This document shows positions 29,882-63,697 of a DNA stretch of 64,000 bases, piece after piece; the stretch's first letter is position 1; the number at the start of each line of letters is the position of its first letter. Source of the DNA: Collybia mongolica (lineage: Eukaryota > Basidiomycota > Agaricomycetes > Agaricales > Clitocybaceae); assembly GCA_013420905.1 (NCBI GenBank), contig JAAXNY010000013.1:2232001-2296000 (forward strand), written 5' to 3'. The position numbers were made by a program, and so were the translations under genes. Under the pieces are notes generated by a model that did no database searches, was not told where the DNA came from, and saw nothing but the letters and a program-made list of their open reading frames with translations.

Positions 29882-30176
29882 GTATTTCAAAGGTTGGTGG
29901 ATGTGCACACATTTTTACGAAGCAGTAGCACTATGTATACTTCCTGGGTCACAATGTAGGGAACAAACAGTGACACGATATGACTCATATTGTGGCCCCT
30001 GTAATCTTAGGCATACATTGGTACAAGTGAAATGTCGATTCTATCAATCAATCAAACATATTTTCTTTAATCACTATCCCACCGTGAAAATTCCCTTCCA
30101 AAGTTTACTTGTCTGTTAGTAAAAAGTAAAGGGATTAGCTGAAGGAAAGGTGTGAAAATGAAAAAATCAAGTTAAC
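29882..30176. other. Convergent intergenic region
   Basis: About 295 bp lies between the stop of the methyltransferase and the stop of the minus-strand GTPase gene. It is AT-rich. CpG becomes scarce from here rightwards. Confidence 0.5.
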
Positions 30177-33100
30177 CTAATCGATTGGCCCAGATGGTTT
30201 CAAAAAGCGTGGCTTCAAACTTTTCTCTGGCCCTGGCAGCAGCATCTTCCTTACCCTGGGCCCCCTTTTCCCAACTATAAAGAAATTAATCAGGTTAAAT
30301 CCAAGATTGGAAAGAGATGTACAACACCTTTTTAGACCAAAACCTTTAAACTTGGGCTGCTTGCTTGGAGAAGCAGGCATAGATGGCAGAGTAGATATGT
30401 CCACTTGATATTTGGAAAAGGCCTTTTGAATTGCCTTTGTAACTTTGCCACACTGCAGGGACTGTTGGTACAGAAGAATGGTAGCAGAAACAGTTTCAGC
30501 AGTGAACTCCTGGCCTTGGTTGCATATGATAGTGAGGTGTTCTGCAATAATAGAAAGGGCTAAAAGATGATGAGGTTTCTTCAAAGTTGGGAAGTAAAGG
30601 GATAACAAACCACATGCATAATTTGTTGGTTGGATCTCAAGAGGAGATGAGGGATGGTCAAGCTGTTGAAAGGTAGATGAGATGGTGAAAGCTTTGGAAA
30701 AAAGTTGAAAGTGGTGCAACAAACCAGCTTTCCTAAGGACTGAGCAACTACAGTGCTTGACAATATCTATAATATAGAGAAGAAGTAGAATTGTATAAAA
30801 GCACAAAGACTAGAACATTGGCCACTCACTTCCTGCAGCATACATCAAGCCATGTGATGGGTTCATGACTACAGAGAAGCACAGCCACTCACATCCTGCA
30901 GCACACATCAAGGCATGAGATGGGCTCATGGATACAGAGAAGCACAGCCACTCACATGCTGCAGCACACATCCAGCCATGAAATGAACTGATACATGCAG
31001 AGAAGCACAGCCACTCACATACTGCAGCACACATCCAGCCATGAAATGAACTGGTACATGCAGAGAAGCACAGCCACTCACTTCCTACAGCACACATCAA
31101 GCCATGAGATGGGCTCATGGATACAGAGAAGCACAGCCACTCACAAGCTGCAGTACACATCAAGCCATGAGATGGGCTCATGGATACAGAGAAGCACAGC
31201 CACTCACAAGCTGCAGCATACATCAAGCCATGTGATGGGTTCATGACTACAGAGAAGCACAGCCACTCACATCCTGCAGCACACATCAAGCCATGAGATG
31301 GGCTCATGGATACAGAGAAGCACAGCCACTCACATGCTGCAGCACACATCCAGCCATGAAATGAACTGATACATGCAGAGAAGCACAGCCACTCACATAC
31401 TGCAGCACACATCCAGCCATGAAATGAACTGATACATGCAGAGAAGCACAGCCACTCACTTCCTACAGCACACATCAAGCCATGAGATGGGCTCATGGAT
31501 ACAGAGAAGCACAGCCACTCACAAGCTGCAGTACACATCAAGCCATGAGATGGGCTCATGGATACAGAGAAGCACAGCCACTTACAATCTGCAGCACACA
31601 TCAAGGCATGAGATGGGCTCATGGATACAGAGAAGCACAGCCACTCACATGCTGCAGCACACATCCAGCCATGAAATGAACTGATACATGCAGAGAAGCA
31701 CAGCCACTCACTTCCTACAGCACACATCAAGCCATGAGATGGGCTCATGGATACAGAGAAGCACAGCCACTTACAATCTGCAGCACACATCAAGGCATGA
31801 GATGGGCTCATGGATACAGAGAAGCACAGCCACTCACATGCTGCAGCACACATCCAGCCATGAAATGAACTGATACATGCAGAGAAGCACAGCCACTCAC
31901 TTCCTACAGCACACATCAAGCCATGAGATGGGCTCATGGATACAGAGAAGCACAGCCACTCACATGCTGCAGCACGCATCAAGCCATGAGATGGGCTCAT
32001 GGATACAGAGAAGCACAGCCACTTACAATCTGCAGCACACATCAAGGCATGAGATGGGCTCATGGATACAGAGAAGCACAGCCACTTACAATCTGCAGCA
32101 CACATCAAGGCATGAGATGGGCTCATGGATACAGAGAAGCACAGCCACTCACATCCTGCAGCACACATCCAGCCATGAAATGGGCTCATGGATACAGAGA
32201 AGTACAGCCACTCACAAGCTGCAGTACACATCAAGCCATGAGATGGGCTCATGGATACAGAGAAGCACAGCCACTCACTTGCTGCAGCACACATCAAGCC
32301 ATGAGATGGGCTCATGGATACAGAGAAGCACAGCCACTTACAATCTGCAGCACACATCAAGGCATGAGATGGGCTCATGGATACAGAGAAGCACAGCCAC
32401 TCACATGCTGCAGCACACATCCAGCCATGAAATGAACTGATACATGCAGAGAAGCACAGCCACTTACAATCTGCAGCACACATCAAGGCATGAGATGGGC
32501 TCATGGATACAGAGAAGCACAGCTACTCACATCCTGCAGCACACATCCAGCCATGAAATGAACTGATACATGCAGAGAAGCACAGCCACTCACTTCCTAC
32601 AGCACACATCAAGCCTGCTGTGGGATGGGCTCATAAATGCAAAGAAATACAGCCACTTACAAGCTGTAGCACCCATCATGATGTGAGATTGGCTTATAAA
32701 CACAACCAAAGGACAGCTACTCACATTCTGCAGTACACATCAAGCCAATACATGCTCAATTAGATTGGCTCTTGGTTAGTTCAGAAAACACTTACCCACT
32801 GTTGCATCCACCCATTTCAGATAGACTTACAAATGTACTTTAAAAATATCACCACTCACACCCTGTAGTATCAACAAAATTTATCAGTTGTCTCCCACTA
32901 CTTCCTTGGTCACTCTAGGTGCTTGTTAGTGTACTAAAAGCACCAAGATTCCTTTCTGACATCACTAACCACATAATAGGGAAAGTATGTCATCACTGCT
33001 TTGAGCATGGGGACACAGGAATCCCTCTCCAGTTGGAGCTTCAAAGCCTCCTTTAAACTCCACCTATTTCACCATTAATCAGCTATCATTATTCATTTGT

Positions 33101-34191
33101 ATTCAAGGCACCCACCTAAGTGACAATTTCATTGATCCCTCCAAGTTGTTTTGCAGGGTTGAAACAAACACTGCTTGCAGAACATCACTGTCAAGAACTG
33201 TTACTGTGCTTTCTACCAGCTCCAGGCATTGTTGTTCTTGTTTGTTTAATTCTTGTATAGATATCAGTGTTTCTTTCTAACCAGATTCCCATATTTGCTT
33301 ACCTTGCAGGTACACATGACCCTGGGGTGGGTATTTCATCTCCTGCAGAACCAGGTGAGTGTTCTTCAAATTGTTCTGAACATACTCCAGTGCATGCTCC
33401 ATTGCCTCATCAAAACTACAACCTTGCTCCTCCAATGCAATTATAGCCTTGATCTCAAGTGCCTCACACTTTGTAAACACAGCAATGAGTGGAACTGTTT
33501 GACTGATCAGAATGACATTTACTGATATCATATCACTCACCATCGCCTGTGCCCACCCGAGAAAAGAACTGCTTTTCGGCGTGTGTGATGGGACGGTCAT
33601 CATCCATCGGAATGCAATACCTTGCAAAAATATTTGATCATTTATTGCACACTTCCATGGGTGAATTAGGACATACCAGATAACATGAATCTGGTCACTG
33701 AGTTTCGTCGCCTTCGAGCGAGCCGATACAAAATTATTCACTTTGTTCAGTTCGTCAACGCCACCAGCTTCGAACCCTCGAGAATCATGAAAGACAAAAC
33801 CAGGGTTGCTGCGAAAAACCATCTCATTCTCGACGTTGTGAAGCCCACGCTGCATTACAATTAGTCATTTGCTATGAAGAGATTACCAACAACAAACATC
33901 TGCACTGGGTTCAATCTTTGATACGTCAACCTGTAGTATATATTGCATGTGAATTTGGATGCATAGCGCCTGGATCACCATTCTACTAACCTTTTGTCCA
34001 TCCTTGGTGTAGATCTCAGGATTGTCGGTTGTGTTACAGATCTTCTTGAGAATAGTTGTCTTTCCCGCGTTGGCTCGGCCAATGATGAGAACGCGAAATC
34101 GCCCAGCTCTCATTTTCAAATCCGCGCGCCTCTTTTCAACTGCCTGCATGTCGACGGTTGTCGGGGCTTGCGAGATATTTGACTGGGACAT
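30177..34191 (-). CDS. Fungal P-loop GTPase with internal microexon/intron array
   Basis: Early exons are clear: 34191-33991, 33930-33898, 33849-33677, 33620-33541, 33494-33303, about 33236-33108 and about 33066-32970. G1 is GRANAGKTT and the switch region is FHDSRGFEAGG. The G4 position reads FTKCEAL where relatives have FTKxD. GHVYL and FVSTLQNNLE blocks are typical of the family of mushroom GTPases with an N-terminal G domain. After FPYYV the gene enters the array at 32862-30825. Beyond it a likely 3' coding part (30765-30177) includes a helical IIAEHLTIICNQGQEF segment and ends at TAG 30177. Exact joins in the 3' part are unresolved because two frames are open near 30765. The function of the family is unknown. 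Several introns end in AAG. Confidence 0.7.
30825..32862 (-). repeat. Array of 33 intron-like units with 3-nt spacing between splice sites
   Basis: Read on the minus strand, each unit is GTRAGT...YAG followed by three bases and the next GTRAG. From the triplet at 32594 to that at 30830 there are 29 units in exact 63-bp register with no indel. Four more diverged units precede them (triplets at 32860, 32796, 32725 and 32661; intron lengths 61, 68, 61 and 64). The triplets are GGT, TGG, AAT and CTT, then mixtures of GAA, GAT, ATT, CAT, CAA, CTT and TAT; none is a stop. Donors (GTGAG or GTAAG) and acceptors (CTGCAG, CTGTAG, CTACAG, CAACAG) stay functional in all. The array lies inside the GTPase gene and is free of CpG except for one unit (31975). 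Confidence 0.9.
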
Positions 34192-41238: not shown

Positions 41239-42401
41239 TACAAGAGGCTTGTTCTGCTTTGGGTTAAACTTTTCCCACAATACAAAATATTGCATATCTC
41301 CACAATGACAAGGTCTATGGATGCAATTTAAATTGCTACTACTAGATATGGTGAAGGGCTACCCAATTGGTGTATTTATGTATATTTGTATGTGTTTGTA
41401 CATCATCAAATATCATGATCAAAAGTAGCTCTCCTACTACAAGCATGTTACAAATGAATATCAAGTTTGTGTATGATTTTGCCACACAGCTAGCCAAACA
41501 AATAATACCATCAAAGTTCCCACACTATAAATCATTGCATATCTCAACAACAACAAGGCCTATGGATGTAATTTAAATTGCTAGTGTTAGATATGGTGAA
41601 GTAGTACCTCATGTATGTGTTTATATGTATTTATATTTGTTTGTATTTTTCTAAACATTATCAACATCATTTTTCTTGCTGCATATTACAAATGAATACT
41701 GTCTGTATATCACTTCATCACACATCTGTCCAAACAAACAATAATACTAAAGAAATTTCCCACAATATAGATGATGCATGTTTCAGCAAATACAAAGCTG
41801 ATGGACATGCTACTACTAGGCATTGTAAGGAATACATTAGGTGTATGTTTATATGTGTTTGTAGTTGTTTGTACCCTTCCAAATCTCATTATCAGCAACA
41901 GCCTTTTTACTACATATTACAAATGAATATCATCTGTATATTACTTTGCCAACATCTGGCCAAACAAACAATATTAATGAAGTTCCCACCATATAGATGA
42001 TGCATATCTCAGCAAATACAAGGCTAATGGACACTATTGAAATTGCTACTACTTCTAGACACATGGAGGGGGTACATCAAAAAATCTATATTTATATTTG
42101 TTTGTACTTTTCCAAGTTTGATTATAATTTCTTGTTATATTGATTTCAATATCACATTTATGTATTACTTGGCCAAAAGCATATCCAAACAAGTCAATGT
42201 AGATGCTCCTGGAATCTATAATGCTAAATATCTTGACAGTGGCTAGCTATATGAGTATGATTAAATACAGTTGTGATAATACAAGAAAAAAACACTTAAC
42301 AGGCATATGTACATTTATTTGAAGTTTGTCTTTGATAATGATATTTCTATTTTTAGCATATCTGGTAAGTTCTTGATTAACCCAGGATGCAAGGCTAGAA
42401 A

Positions 42402-61068: not shown

Positions 61069-62284
61069 TGTAAGGGGGCTCCTGGGCTATAAGTGCGCTG
61101 ATGCTATGAAATGTAATCTCTCTCACACACACACCAAACCTAACAATCAACACACGAACAGTAGGAATCGCCTGTTTTGAGTTCGGGTTCAAGTGCTTAG
61201 AAGCACTAAGCTTTGAATAGTACTAGCCAAAGCCCTTTCCAATGATCTCTCAACGGGTTCGATTTAGACAAAAGCTTCAACACAGGTTCAAAAACCTGCT
61301 AGGTATATTTATAATATCTCTCGATCCAATAGACTGAGTACCAAGTGTACGTTCAATTATTAGTGATCCCAAGCGGATCTATAAGTCCAAGCGACTTATC
61401 AAACAATACAGTGCCAAGTGCACTAAGGCCAAGTGCCTAGTAATTCCAACGGACAATACGGTACTAAGTTCCAAGTGAACTAAGTTTCTTTAATTCTGTG
61501 GTTCTCCAATCAATTCCAATCAAGACACGTTGAAGCAATCTGATCCTTAATTCGGGCACGCAATAGTGTTTTAACAAATGTGATTTGTATACTCTATAGT
61601 CGCGCGAAGTGGGGGCAAGATTCCTTGCCTTAGCGCTACTCATCTACAGTCTATTTATAATGTACAAACTAAATATCATATGGAATTGTAAATTTTACAC
61701 GGAACCGCGCTCCCGCGCGCCAAGAATCTGTATTCAATACTGATGCGTCTACTACAACTTGGCACGCGCGCCATGCATGCCAATTATGTTGTTTACTGGT
61801 TACTTATCAAATATTGAAAGAGCTGGCTAAACTCTTATCAAGTCCCGACCGCGCGCTCTGTTATTTAAAACAGCGCGGCACTGTCGTTTACTCCTCCTGA
61901 TTGTCCTGGTTGCTATTCACGGTGTCCCGTCACTTCCGGTAGTTAACACCAAGTACCCCTGACTAGGATCGGGTTGTGCAAGTCCCGAATTTACAATTAC
62001 TTCTCCTATTAATGATGATCCCCGGACTAATGATATCATACTACAACGGTTACTTATGAACTAAGACACCGAGGTTGTAACCAGGCATGGTGAATAGGAC
62101 TAATAATAGACCGTACTCATAGTCCTCTGTACTGATAGTGTATTATCCATTAGACTAGTTCACTCTGATTAGCCGTCTCGGAGCTCGACTCTAATCCTTT
62201 ATTACTGCTTACTTGGTTATTAGAAATGACACTAATAGCCTTACTTGTTGACTTTATAAGTGCAAACAATTTTGGGCCCTATCA
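61069..62284 (-). repeat. 5' LTR of the full-length element
   Basis: Minus-strand TGATAGGGCCC to CCCCCTTACA, 1216 bp. The terminal TTACA differs from TTTCA of the other LTRs. Confidence 0.95.
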
Positions 62285-62698
62285 GCGGCACTGTCATTTA
62301 CTTCTCCTGATTGTCCCGGTCGCTATTCACGGGGTCCCGTCGCTTCCGGTAGTTAACACCAAGTACCCCTGACAAGGATCGGGTTGTGCAAGTCCCGAAT
62401 TTACAATTACTTCTCCTATTAATGATGATCCCTGGACTAATGATATCATACTACAACAGTTACTTATGAACTACATAAGACACTGAGGTTGTAACCGGGC
62501 ATGGTGAATAGGACTAATAATAGACCGTACTCATAGTCCTCTGTACTGATAGTGTATTATCCATTAGACTAGTTCACTCTGATTAGCCGTCTTGGAGCTC
62601 GACTCTAATCCTTTATTACTGTTTACTTGGTTATTAGAAATGATACTAATAGCCTTACTTGTCGACTTTATAAGTGCAAACAATTTCGGGCCCTATCA
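62285..62698 (-). repeat. Truncated 5' LTR of the outer element
   Basis: It contains the first 414 bp (coding orientation) of an LTR ending abruptly at GCGGCACTG, where the inner element begins. Variants match the LTR at 44872-46090. Confidence 0.9.
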
Positions 62699-63697
62699 GC
62701 GGCCAGTGCCACCACCACTGAAACCCAGGCCACTGATGATGCCGCAGGGGCTGACAAGGACAACGGGGGAGGGCAGGGGCCCCTGCCCCTGCCCATATTA
62801 AATTATGTTTTATAATCCATGCATTATATTTAGTAGCAATATATATTATTATCCTATCAATGTATGTAGAATGTTAGTAAGTAAACCCTTATATGTAAGT
62901 AAGTAATTTATAATTGAAGAAAGTAACTGAGTCTGCATGGAGTCTGTGCAGAGTCTGCAAGGACATGTGGGGGACTGTAAAGTACAGGTGTTTGCATGCT
63001 ATTGCAGTAGGTGGCCTCCTGTATGCATGGTATTCCAGAGGGTGGGGGTTGTCTAAGGTCTGGGGCTGTGCATCAGTGAAATACTTGCCTATACCCTACC
63101 ACACTGTAAAGAGTTGCATCACATTGAGTGTTAGAAGGGGGGAATGATATGAGCAGCAGGGTTCAGCCCCACAGGGAAGGGGGCACCAGCAAATTAAATG
63201 GGATTTGTTGCAAGAAATCTAGGCCTAGTTCATTACAAACATACTATCTGTAATTAGACAGCCCCATCTATATATAGGTACTTTGGATAAATACTGTAGG
63301 GGTACCAGAAGTGTATATCAGCCCACTAGATGTGTACAAATAGTACAGGGGTAAAGTATCAGTAAGAAGTAAACTAATATTTGTAAAAGGAATAAGAACA
63401 TATCACAAGGTAGATAGAATTACACCAAGGTAGTCTCAAGGTATACAGCAGCATATAGGTGCATATACAATAGAACAAGGTATATCTGAGCAACTAGATG
63501 TGGGGCACATATGCACTCACCTTACACCAATCTGGTTTGGGCACTGGGGTGGTTGGCACTACTTGGTCTAGACAGCACATCCAGGGGTGCACACCCACCC
63601 ACTGAGTGATGGTTCTACCATATGGAATACACCACTGTACCACCCATATCCACCATGCTAGCTGCTCACTAGCAGATGTGGGCAGGCAGTCACTGGT

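Follow-up and report, generated by a model that had tools for sequence, protein, structure and literature searches.

The window analysed here, a 64,000-nt stretch of the Collybia mongolica genome, carries on its minus strand a GTPase gene that is interrupted by 33 consecutive 3-nt segments, each bounded by its own splice sites. We consider this array very probably to be a coding ladder, in which single-codon exons are added codon by codon as an internal segment of the protein; that they enter the mRNA is what we infer from the evidence below. The gene model, built from reading frame and homology, comprises 44 exons and 43 introns, all of them GT-AG, and encodes 496 codons with no internal stop. 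Its parts are as follows.

33991..34191, minus strand: exon 1, with the start codon and the P-loop (GRANAGKT), from the gene model by reading frame and homology
32970..33930, minus strand: exons 2 to 7 of the GTPase part, with five introns of 46 to 56 nt, ending in ..MTYFPYYV at a phase-0 donor, from homologs and Pfam
32863..32969, minus strand: intron preceding the ladder, 107 nt
30830..32862, minus strand: the ladder, 33 phase-0 exons of 3 nt with 32 introns between them, predicted peptide GWNLEDIHIQLDIIHEHIEHILEYHDLLEYHDE
32594..32862, minus strand: conserved ladder entry, exons 1 to 5 reading G-W-N-L-E, introns of 61, 68, 61 and 64 nt, from the alignment of nine paralogs
30767..30829, minus strand: intron closing the ladder, 63 nt
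30725..30766, minus strand: first exon past the ladder, ILSSTVVAQSLGKL, from the gene model
30105..30662, minus strand: exons of the C-terminal domain (30662-30328, 30274-30177 and 30112-30105), ending in the stop codon TAA, with introns of 53 and 64 nt

The GTPase part consists of seven ordinary exons (34191-32970) and matches the Pfam family MMR_HSR1 (PF01926) just above the curated cut-off (22.2 bits versus 21.9, E = 1.6e-4). The family is widely represented in mushrooms: at least 714 homologs were found, and 120 of these were listed and read. The named homologs among the 120 are fungal, and the best 14 of the 120 are Collybia nuda proteins with 51-65% identity over 51-61% of the query. Past the ladder, a profile comparison by hhalign relates the C-terminal exons to the domain that ends the homologs (probability 84.5%, E = 6.9e-6). 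Only the profile comparison detected this similarity, as BLASTP of the window's C-terminal domain against the homolog P0015 gave no match; residues 300-496 of the predicted product, used as a protein query, likewise gave no match at E <= 10 among 556 candidates. We considered whether the long downstream frame was out of phase with the ladder and rejected this, as a 62-nt intron at 30724-30663 restores the phase. Because the C-terminal domain comes after the ladder, the insert is internal and not a tail. The first-pass annotation, made from the letters alone, had proposed an amphipathic tail at the C terminus, and this part of its reading does not hold, since the segment lies inside the protein and has a very different composition from one paralog to the next.

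The structure of the array itself agreed with that annotation, which had described 33 units, each with a GTRAG donor, a YAG acceptor and a 3-nt gap. We recovered 33 YAG-NNN-GTRAG sites on the minus strand at the coordinates it gave, with triplets running from 32862-32860 to 30832-30830. The introns measure 61, 68, 61 and 64 nt and then 60 nt 28 times over, as expected from its account of 29 strict 63-bp units and four odd ones, and the triplets are the ones it listed, in phase 0 and without a stop. It had also described the neighboring introns as equal in size to those of the array, which is true of the other introns of the gene (46-64 nt) but not of the 107-nt intron before the array. Tandem Repeats Finder (TRF) reported a period of 63 with a score of 2661. 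The first 21 nt of the intron, allowing three mismatches or fewer, matched 28 times in the window versus a mean of 0.00 over 100 shuffles, and a chance origin of the array is thereby excluded.

The ladder in the window is one of many. We searched the assembly containing the window, 45.97 Mb in 26 contigs, with the first 21 nt of the intron at no more than two mismatches and obtained 180 matches, versus 0 for the reversed control. Positions were listed for 100 of the 180. The 17 loci around listed donor clusters (L009-L025) were scanned together with the window, L031 and L056, giving 20 sources, and 17 of the 20 held chains of at least six units, 20 chains in all. We counted these chains as 18 arrays, with the three chains of L024 taken as one array and those of L014 as one per strand, perhaps halves of one gene. 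Two loci chosen only for their GTPase homology added one array each, with 21 units in view in L058 and 18 in L059. The total is thus 20 arrays of YAG-NNN-GTRAG build in paralogous genes, including that of the window. Short chains in L012 (4 units) and L018 (6 and 4 units) are outside both these 20 arrays and the 381 triplets analyzed below, as are the triplets of L058 and L059; L018, which has a C-terminal match, is probably another array.

The loci L009-L025 are enriched for ladders because they were selected by a common donor 21-mer. Among the five loci taken by GTPase homology (L031, L056, L058, L059 and L060), three contain a ladder. L056 has the first ladder units only, and its remaining ladder and C-terminal part are missing; in L060, the ladder is absent from the 1.5 kb fetched. 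In a further locus, L057, no match to the C-terminal part was found in the sequence fetched. Of the 17 sources that contain a called chain, 12 have both the N- and C-terminal coding parts on the same strand as the ladder, and the others lack one flank in the fetched stretch. Every source with a called array, among the matches listed (100 of 180), has at least one flank of the GTPase gene. The N-terminal match in L020 is limited to residues 217-303, and in L021 about 1.8 kb separates the N-terminal part from the ladder. L014 (C6:383000-392500) has a ladder and the N-terminal part on one strand and a ladder and the C-terminal part on the other, and looks like a single gene split by inversion within the array. 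The genome search for a retrocopy of the spliced product gave 39 matches, and none spans from before to after the ladder.

Exon length is constant where unit and intron lengths are not. Units are mostly 63 nt long, about 67 nt in L010, L024, L025, L031 and L059, and about 75 nt in L058, and the called exons are 3 nt in every array. Introns of the called chains come in 21 different lengths from 50 to 71 nt. In L058, a distant paralog with a different, 72-nt intron, the introns range from 55 to 73 nt and the exons are again 3 nt. A YAG stands exactly 3 nt 5' of 338 of the 346 GTRAGT donors in the called arrays; since this spacing was itself the criterion for calling an array, the information lies only in how rare the exceptions are.

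The triplets show the properties expected of codons. There were no stops among the 381 triplets of the 20 chains, versus 22.0 expected from per-position base use (P = 1.4e-10). The lowest stop count in permutations was 7, or 11 when triplets were permuted within arrays. TAT occurred 46 times and TAA never, whereas other NAT and NAA triplets numbered 91 and 82 (Fisher, 1.5e-11). The deficit persisted when identical contexts were collapsed (0/331 versus 20.5 expected) and in the nine arrays with both protein flanks (0/226 versus 12.1 expected). L058 had no stops among its 21 triplets in view, for which only 1.3 were expected. The array caller misparsed at least two units of L024, reading CAA where CTA and CCA with GC donors were seen by eye, and neither parsing gives a stop; one triplet called in L021 (CAC) is probably due to chance.

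We also read the joined triplets of the ladders in the other two frames. Over all chains, frame 1 had stops at 2 of 361 positions and frame 2 at 93 of 361; in the window array, frame 1 is open as well and frame 2 has many stops. Openness alone is weak evidence, because joined frame 1 has so few stops, and the weight therefore rests on the composition-controlled test together with both phase-0 flanks. Frame 1 was rejected as the coding frame of the ladder on the basis of these flanks, and frame 2 on the basis of its stops, both in the window and over all chains.

Conservation within the ladder is concentrated at its start. Aligned in nine paralogs, ladder exons 1-5 read x-Trp-Asn/Asp-Leu-Glu, with TGG and CTT invariant, and the introns among them are 75-79% identical and of unequal lengths. 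Invariant columns made up 10 of 12 in exons 2-5 versus 69 of 187 in the intron cores (p = 0.002); the two variable columns correspond to the Asn/Asp change and to synonymous GAA/GAG. Beyond this entry, the residues differ widely among genes (for example, GWNLEDIHIQLDIIHEHIEHIL.., TWNLENLKLKDLYKLRREYEKE and YWNNNNNVFFFHDWDWHIDDD..). Mean triplet diversity exceeded the intron-core mean, with splice sites omitted, in all 10 arrays that have at least eight 63-nt units, and codon position 1 was the most variable of the 63 columns in 8 of the 10. The triplet excess was modest in L014 and L019, where 15 and 16 of 51 core columns, respectively, lay above the triplet mean. Diversifying selection on the residues would produce such an excess and is its putative cause. 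The recent duplicates L010 and L059 differ at 5 of 986 intron sites and at 0 of 54 triplet sites, a comparison that lacks power because of their recency.

The last base is T or A in 358 of the 381 ladder exons (20 chains), whereas it is G in 9 of the 10 conventional exons that were listed by hand for the window gene. L058 departs from the T/A-ending rule, as 17 of its 21 triplets end in G. CpG decay beside the GT could explain why C has been lost from the final position of these exons in the other ladders. It was also observed in L058 (C9:3287800-3289600) that NAG triplets put two acceptors 3 nt apart.

Homologs in other fungi have a variable region at the corresponding site. P0015, P0019, P0101 and P0121 are encoded on JGI contigs of 1.7-2.6 kb by long frames that lack the window gene's introns in the corresponding region, and judging from these intronless frames, the contigs are probably transcript-derived. 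All four have low-complexity inserts directly after the WFPH/FPYY motif (..LHSLLYHLEYHHREEEEYHHHHHYLEYEEY.. in P0015, ..ELRELERHNELFRNEEELNKHARARAREELREE.. in P0019). P0015 and P0019 share 76% identity across 346 aligned positions, their divergence begins past WFPH, and the C-terminal domain is absent downstream of the insert in P0019. P0101 and P0121 have both flanks in common and inserts unlike in sequence and length. The inserts of these four need not derive from 3-nt exons. An FP[HY..] motif occurs after residue 230 in 67 of the 120 listed homologs, and 54 of these 67 proteins end within 40 residues past it, as expected if gene finders cannot follow 3-nt exons. Some Suillus models (P0041, P0074) have a short link to the C-terminal domain and no long insert. 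By eye, two other Suillus models, P0088 and P0102, contain stretches of about 22 residues starting with VSV (resembling a translated GTGAGT..) after WFPH, twice in P0088, and Boletales may thus have ladders of two-codon exons. A scan of viral contigs for the GTPase family gave 101 pattern matches and no relative.

If the array is coding, its inclusion could vary. It is possible, though we hold this only tentatively, that the ladder is alternatively spliced and that subsets of microexons give isoforms of different length and sequence from each gene; this is a variant of the coding ladder and does not exclude it. Any subset of exons would stay in frame, all being 3 nt long and in phase 0. The YTRAY branch motif is present in 289 of 361 introns (in the stretch examined) and missing in 72; its absence from 11 of the 32 introns in the window speaks for variable inclusion, while the gaps as a whole are a weak point of the coding ladder. 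However, skipping one exon in 63-nt units would require a 123-nt intron, about twice the usual size in the window gene.

The first-pass annotation had left two readings side by side, a coding ladder of microexons and a single intron that grows by self-duplication, and the first is favored and the second disfavored by the lack of stops, the conserved entry, the 3-nt exons and the downstream frame. We regard it as unlikely that the array is one minisatellite intron of about 2.2 kb, removed whole or stepwise, with the 3-nt exons omitted or unimportant and the sites persisting by unit copying. Units do duplicate in blocks (exact repeats of up to 239 nt, offset by three units), the consensus intron is identical in five arrays, including that of the window, and skipping of the whole array would also preserve the frame of the window gene, all of which agree with such an intron. 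It does not account for the absence of stop triplets, for a W-N/D-L-E start conserved while the introns diverged, or for triplets that vary more than the introns around them. Also against it are L058, which keeps 3-nt exons with a different intron, and the intronless homologs with variable inserts at the ladder site. Recursive (ratchet) splicing of one long intron was also considered and rejected, since it requires zero-length exons with an AG directly before the GT, and the YAG instead stands 3 nt before the donor in 338 of 346 cases. Finally, it is highly improbable that the ladder marks decaying genes of a GTPase family that no longer needs it: several paralogs are seemingly broken in the ladder or next to it (L014 divided over the two strands, L020 incomplete, L021, L022 and L023 interrupted, L056 with the first units only and no C-terminal part), but 12 of 17 sources have both flanks, none of the called triplets is a stop and the frame of the window gene is intact.

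For the coding ladder, we propose the following mechanism. Each unit would consist of a 3-nt exon and a full intron about 60 nt long. The introns would be taken out singly by the spliceosome under intron definition, most likely in 5' to 3' order during transcription, and every splice would lengthen the upstream exon by one codon (3 nt). Given this order, the two ends of a 3-nt exon would not have to be bound at once, as the upstream exon would already be of normal length. The product would be an internal, low-complexity segment of variable length joining the GTPase part to the putatively helical C-terminal domain. Because all exons are 3 nt long and in phase 0, gain, loss or skipping of a unit would amount to one residue, with the frame kept. 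Duplication of unit blocks would extend the segment, and selection would keep the entry (x-W-N/D-L-E) and diversify the remainder. A further weak point is that, by eye, L024 has GC donors in three units and has lost the AG in one and the GT in one; if the longer intron is spliced, loss of a site would remove one or two residues and leave the frame unchanged.

As to function, our guess is that the segment serves an IRG-like GTPase as a surface for recognition or interaction. A broader scenario, which we offer with considerable doubt, is that a large fungal family of IRG-like GTPases has a recognition segment between the G part and the helical C-terminal domain whose length and residues are varied by duplication and mutation of single-codon units and by combinatorial inclusion, so that every gene would supply a range of variants to serve in innate immunity or in nonself recognition.

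We know of no case in which dozens of consecutive 3-nt exons are spliced. Among the closest known systems are the micro-exon genes (MEGs) of schistosomes, whose coding region consists mostly of very small symmetrical exons and in which splicing can vary a few residues in frame (PMC4350168, as far as the excerpt describes them). Small symmetrical exons and a preserved frame are common to both systems (PMC4350168), although the ladder, at 33 of the gene's 496 codons, does not make up most of its gene. Ladders differ from MEGs in that each exon consists of a single codon, that exon and intron together form a tandemly duplicated unit, and that they occur in a fungus; MEG exons are not described as copies of one unit in the excerpt of that source (PMC4350168). 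Animals splice single 3-nt exons between full introns in hth, troponin T and NCAM, and the microexons of RPS24 are a related case, according to an excerpt of PMC7392893. These genes have one or a few microexons, whereas ladders form chains of up to 33 in the window, or more, that recur in many genes. Trichoderma Xlr2 has a functional microexon, and the 2024 abstract that reports it states that none had been described before in filamentous fungi (PMC11121469); unlike the ladder, a tandem single-codon array is not mentioned there. Nor is such an array mentioned in the excerpts of plant papers that use the term "microexon cluster" (PMC8831610, PMC12409088).

Other systems resemble the ladder in part. 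Tandem duplication of AGGT segments makes new introns, and the peptide is unaltered in that model (PMC4974935). The two have tandem duplication in common, but duplication in the ladder would add a codon each time. Introner-like elements are invasive introns of many genes. They have been described, in the excerpt of one report, as multiplied near-identical introns in fungal genomes (PMC4457414). Ladder introns, unlike these, lie head to tail, always 3 nt apart, within a single gene family. In coding minisatellites such as the PRDM9 zinc-finger array, tandem units are kept alike and a few contact codons diversify. The ladder is similar in having uniform units with diversified codons, but its unit is about 95% intron and holds a single codon. 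In the open-access literature (titles and beginnings of abstracts), we recognized no description of tandem single-codon exons. What sets the ladder apart is a repeat unit made of an intron and a single codon, together with its recurrence throughout a gene family; its parts are nevertheless ordinary spliceosomal ones.

An exon of 3 nt is close to the smallest that splicing is known to handle. A gene that needs 34 such splicing events in series, repeated over a family, would be a natural test bed for intron definition, splicing order and the smallest workable exon. If the ladder is coding, it would represent a new mode of protein evolution, in which each intron-exon duplication lengthens the protein by one residue and leaves the frame intact. 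Such segments probably escape gene finders, and parts of mushroom proteins may therefore be misannotated.

Two other repeats were observed in the window. At 61875-62703, the window has two 414-bp direct repeats (95% matches), which also occur in L020 and L060 at 94-97% identity, in L060 downstream of the GTPase paralog; the 414-bp repeat is probably a mobile element. A 231-bp repeat at 41618-42033 has matches of 89-92% in L056, L017 and L022, and in L056 it lies about 800 nt past the first microexons of the paralog that lacks the remaining ladder.
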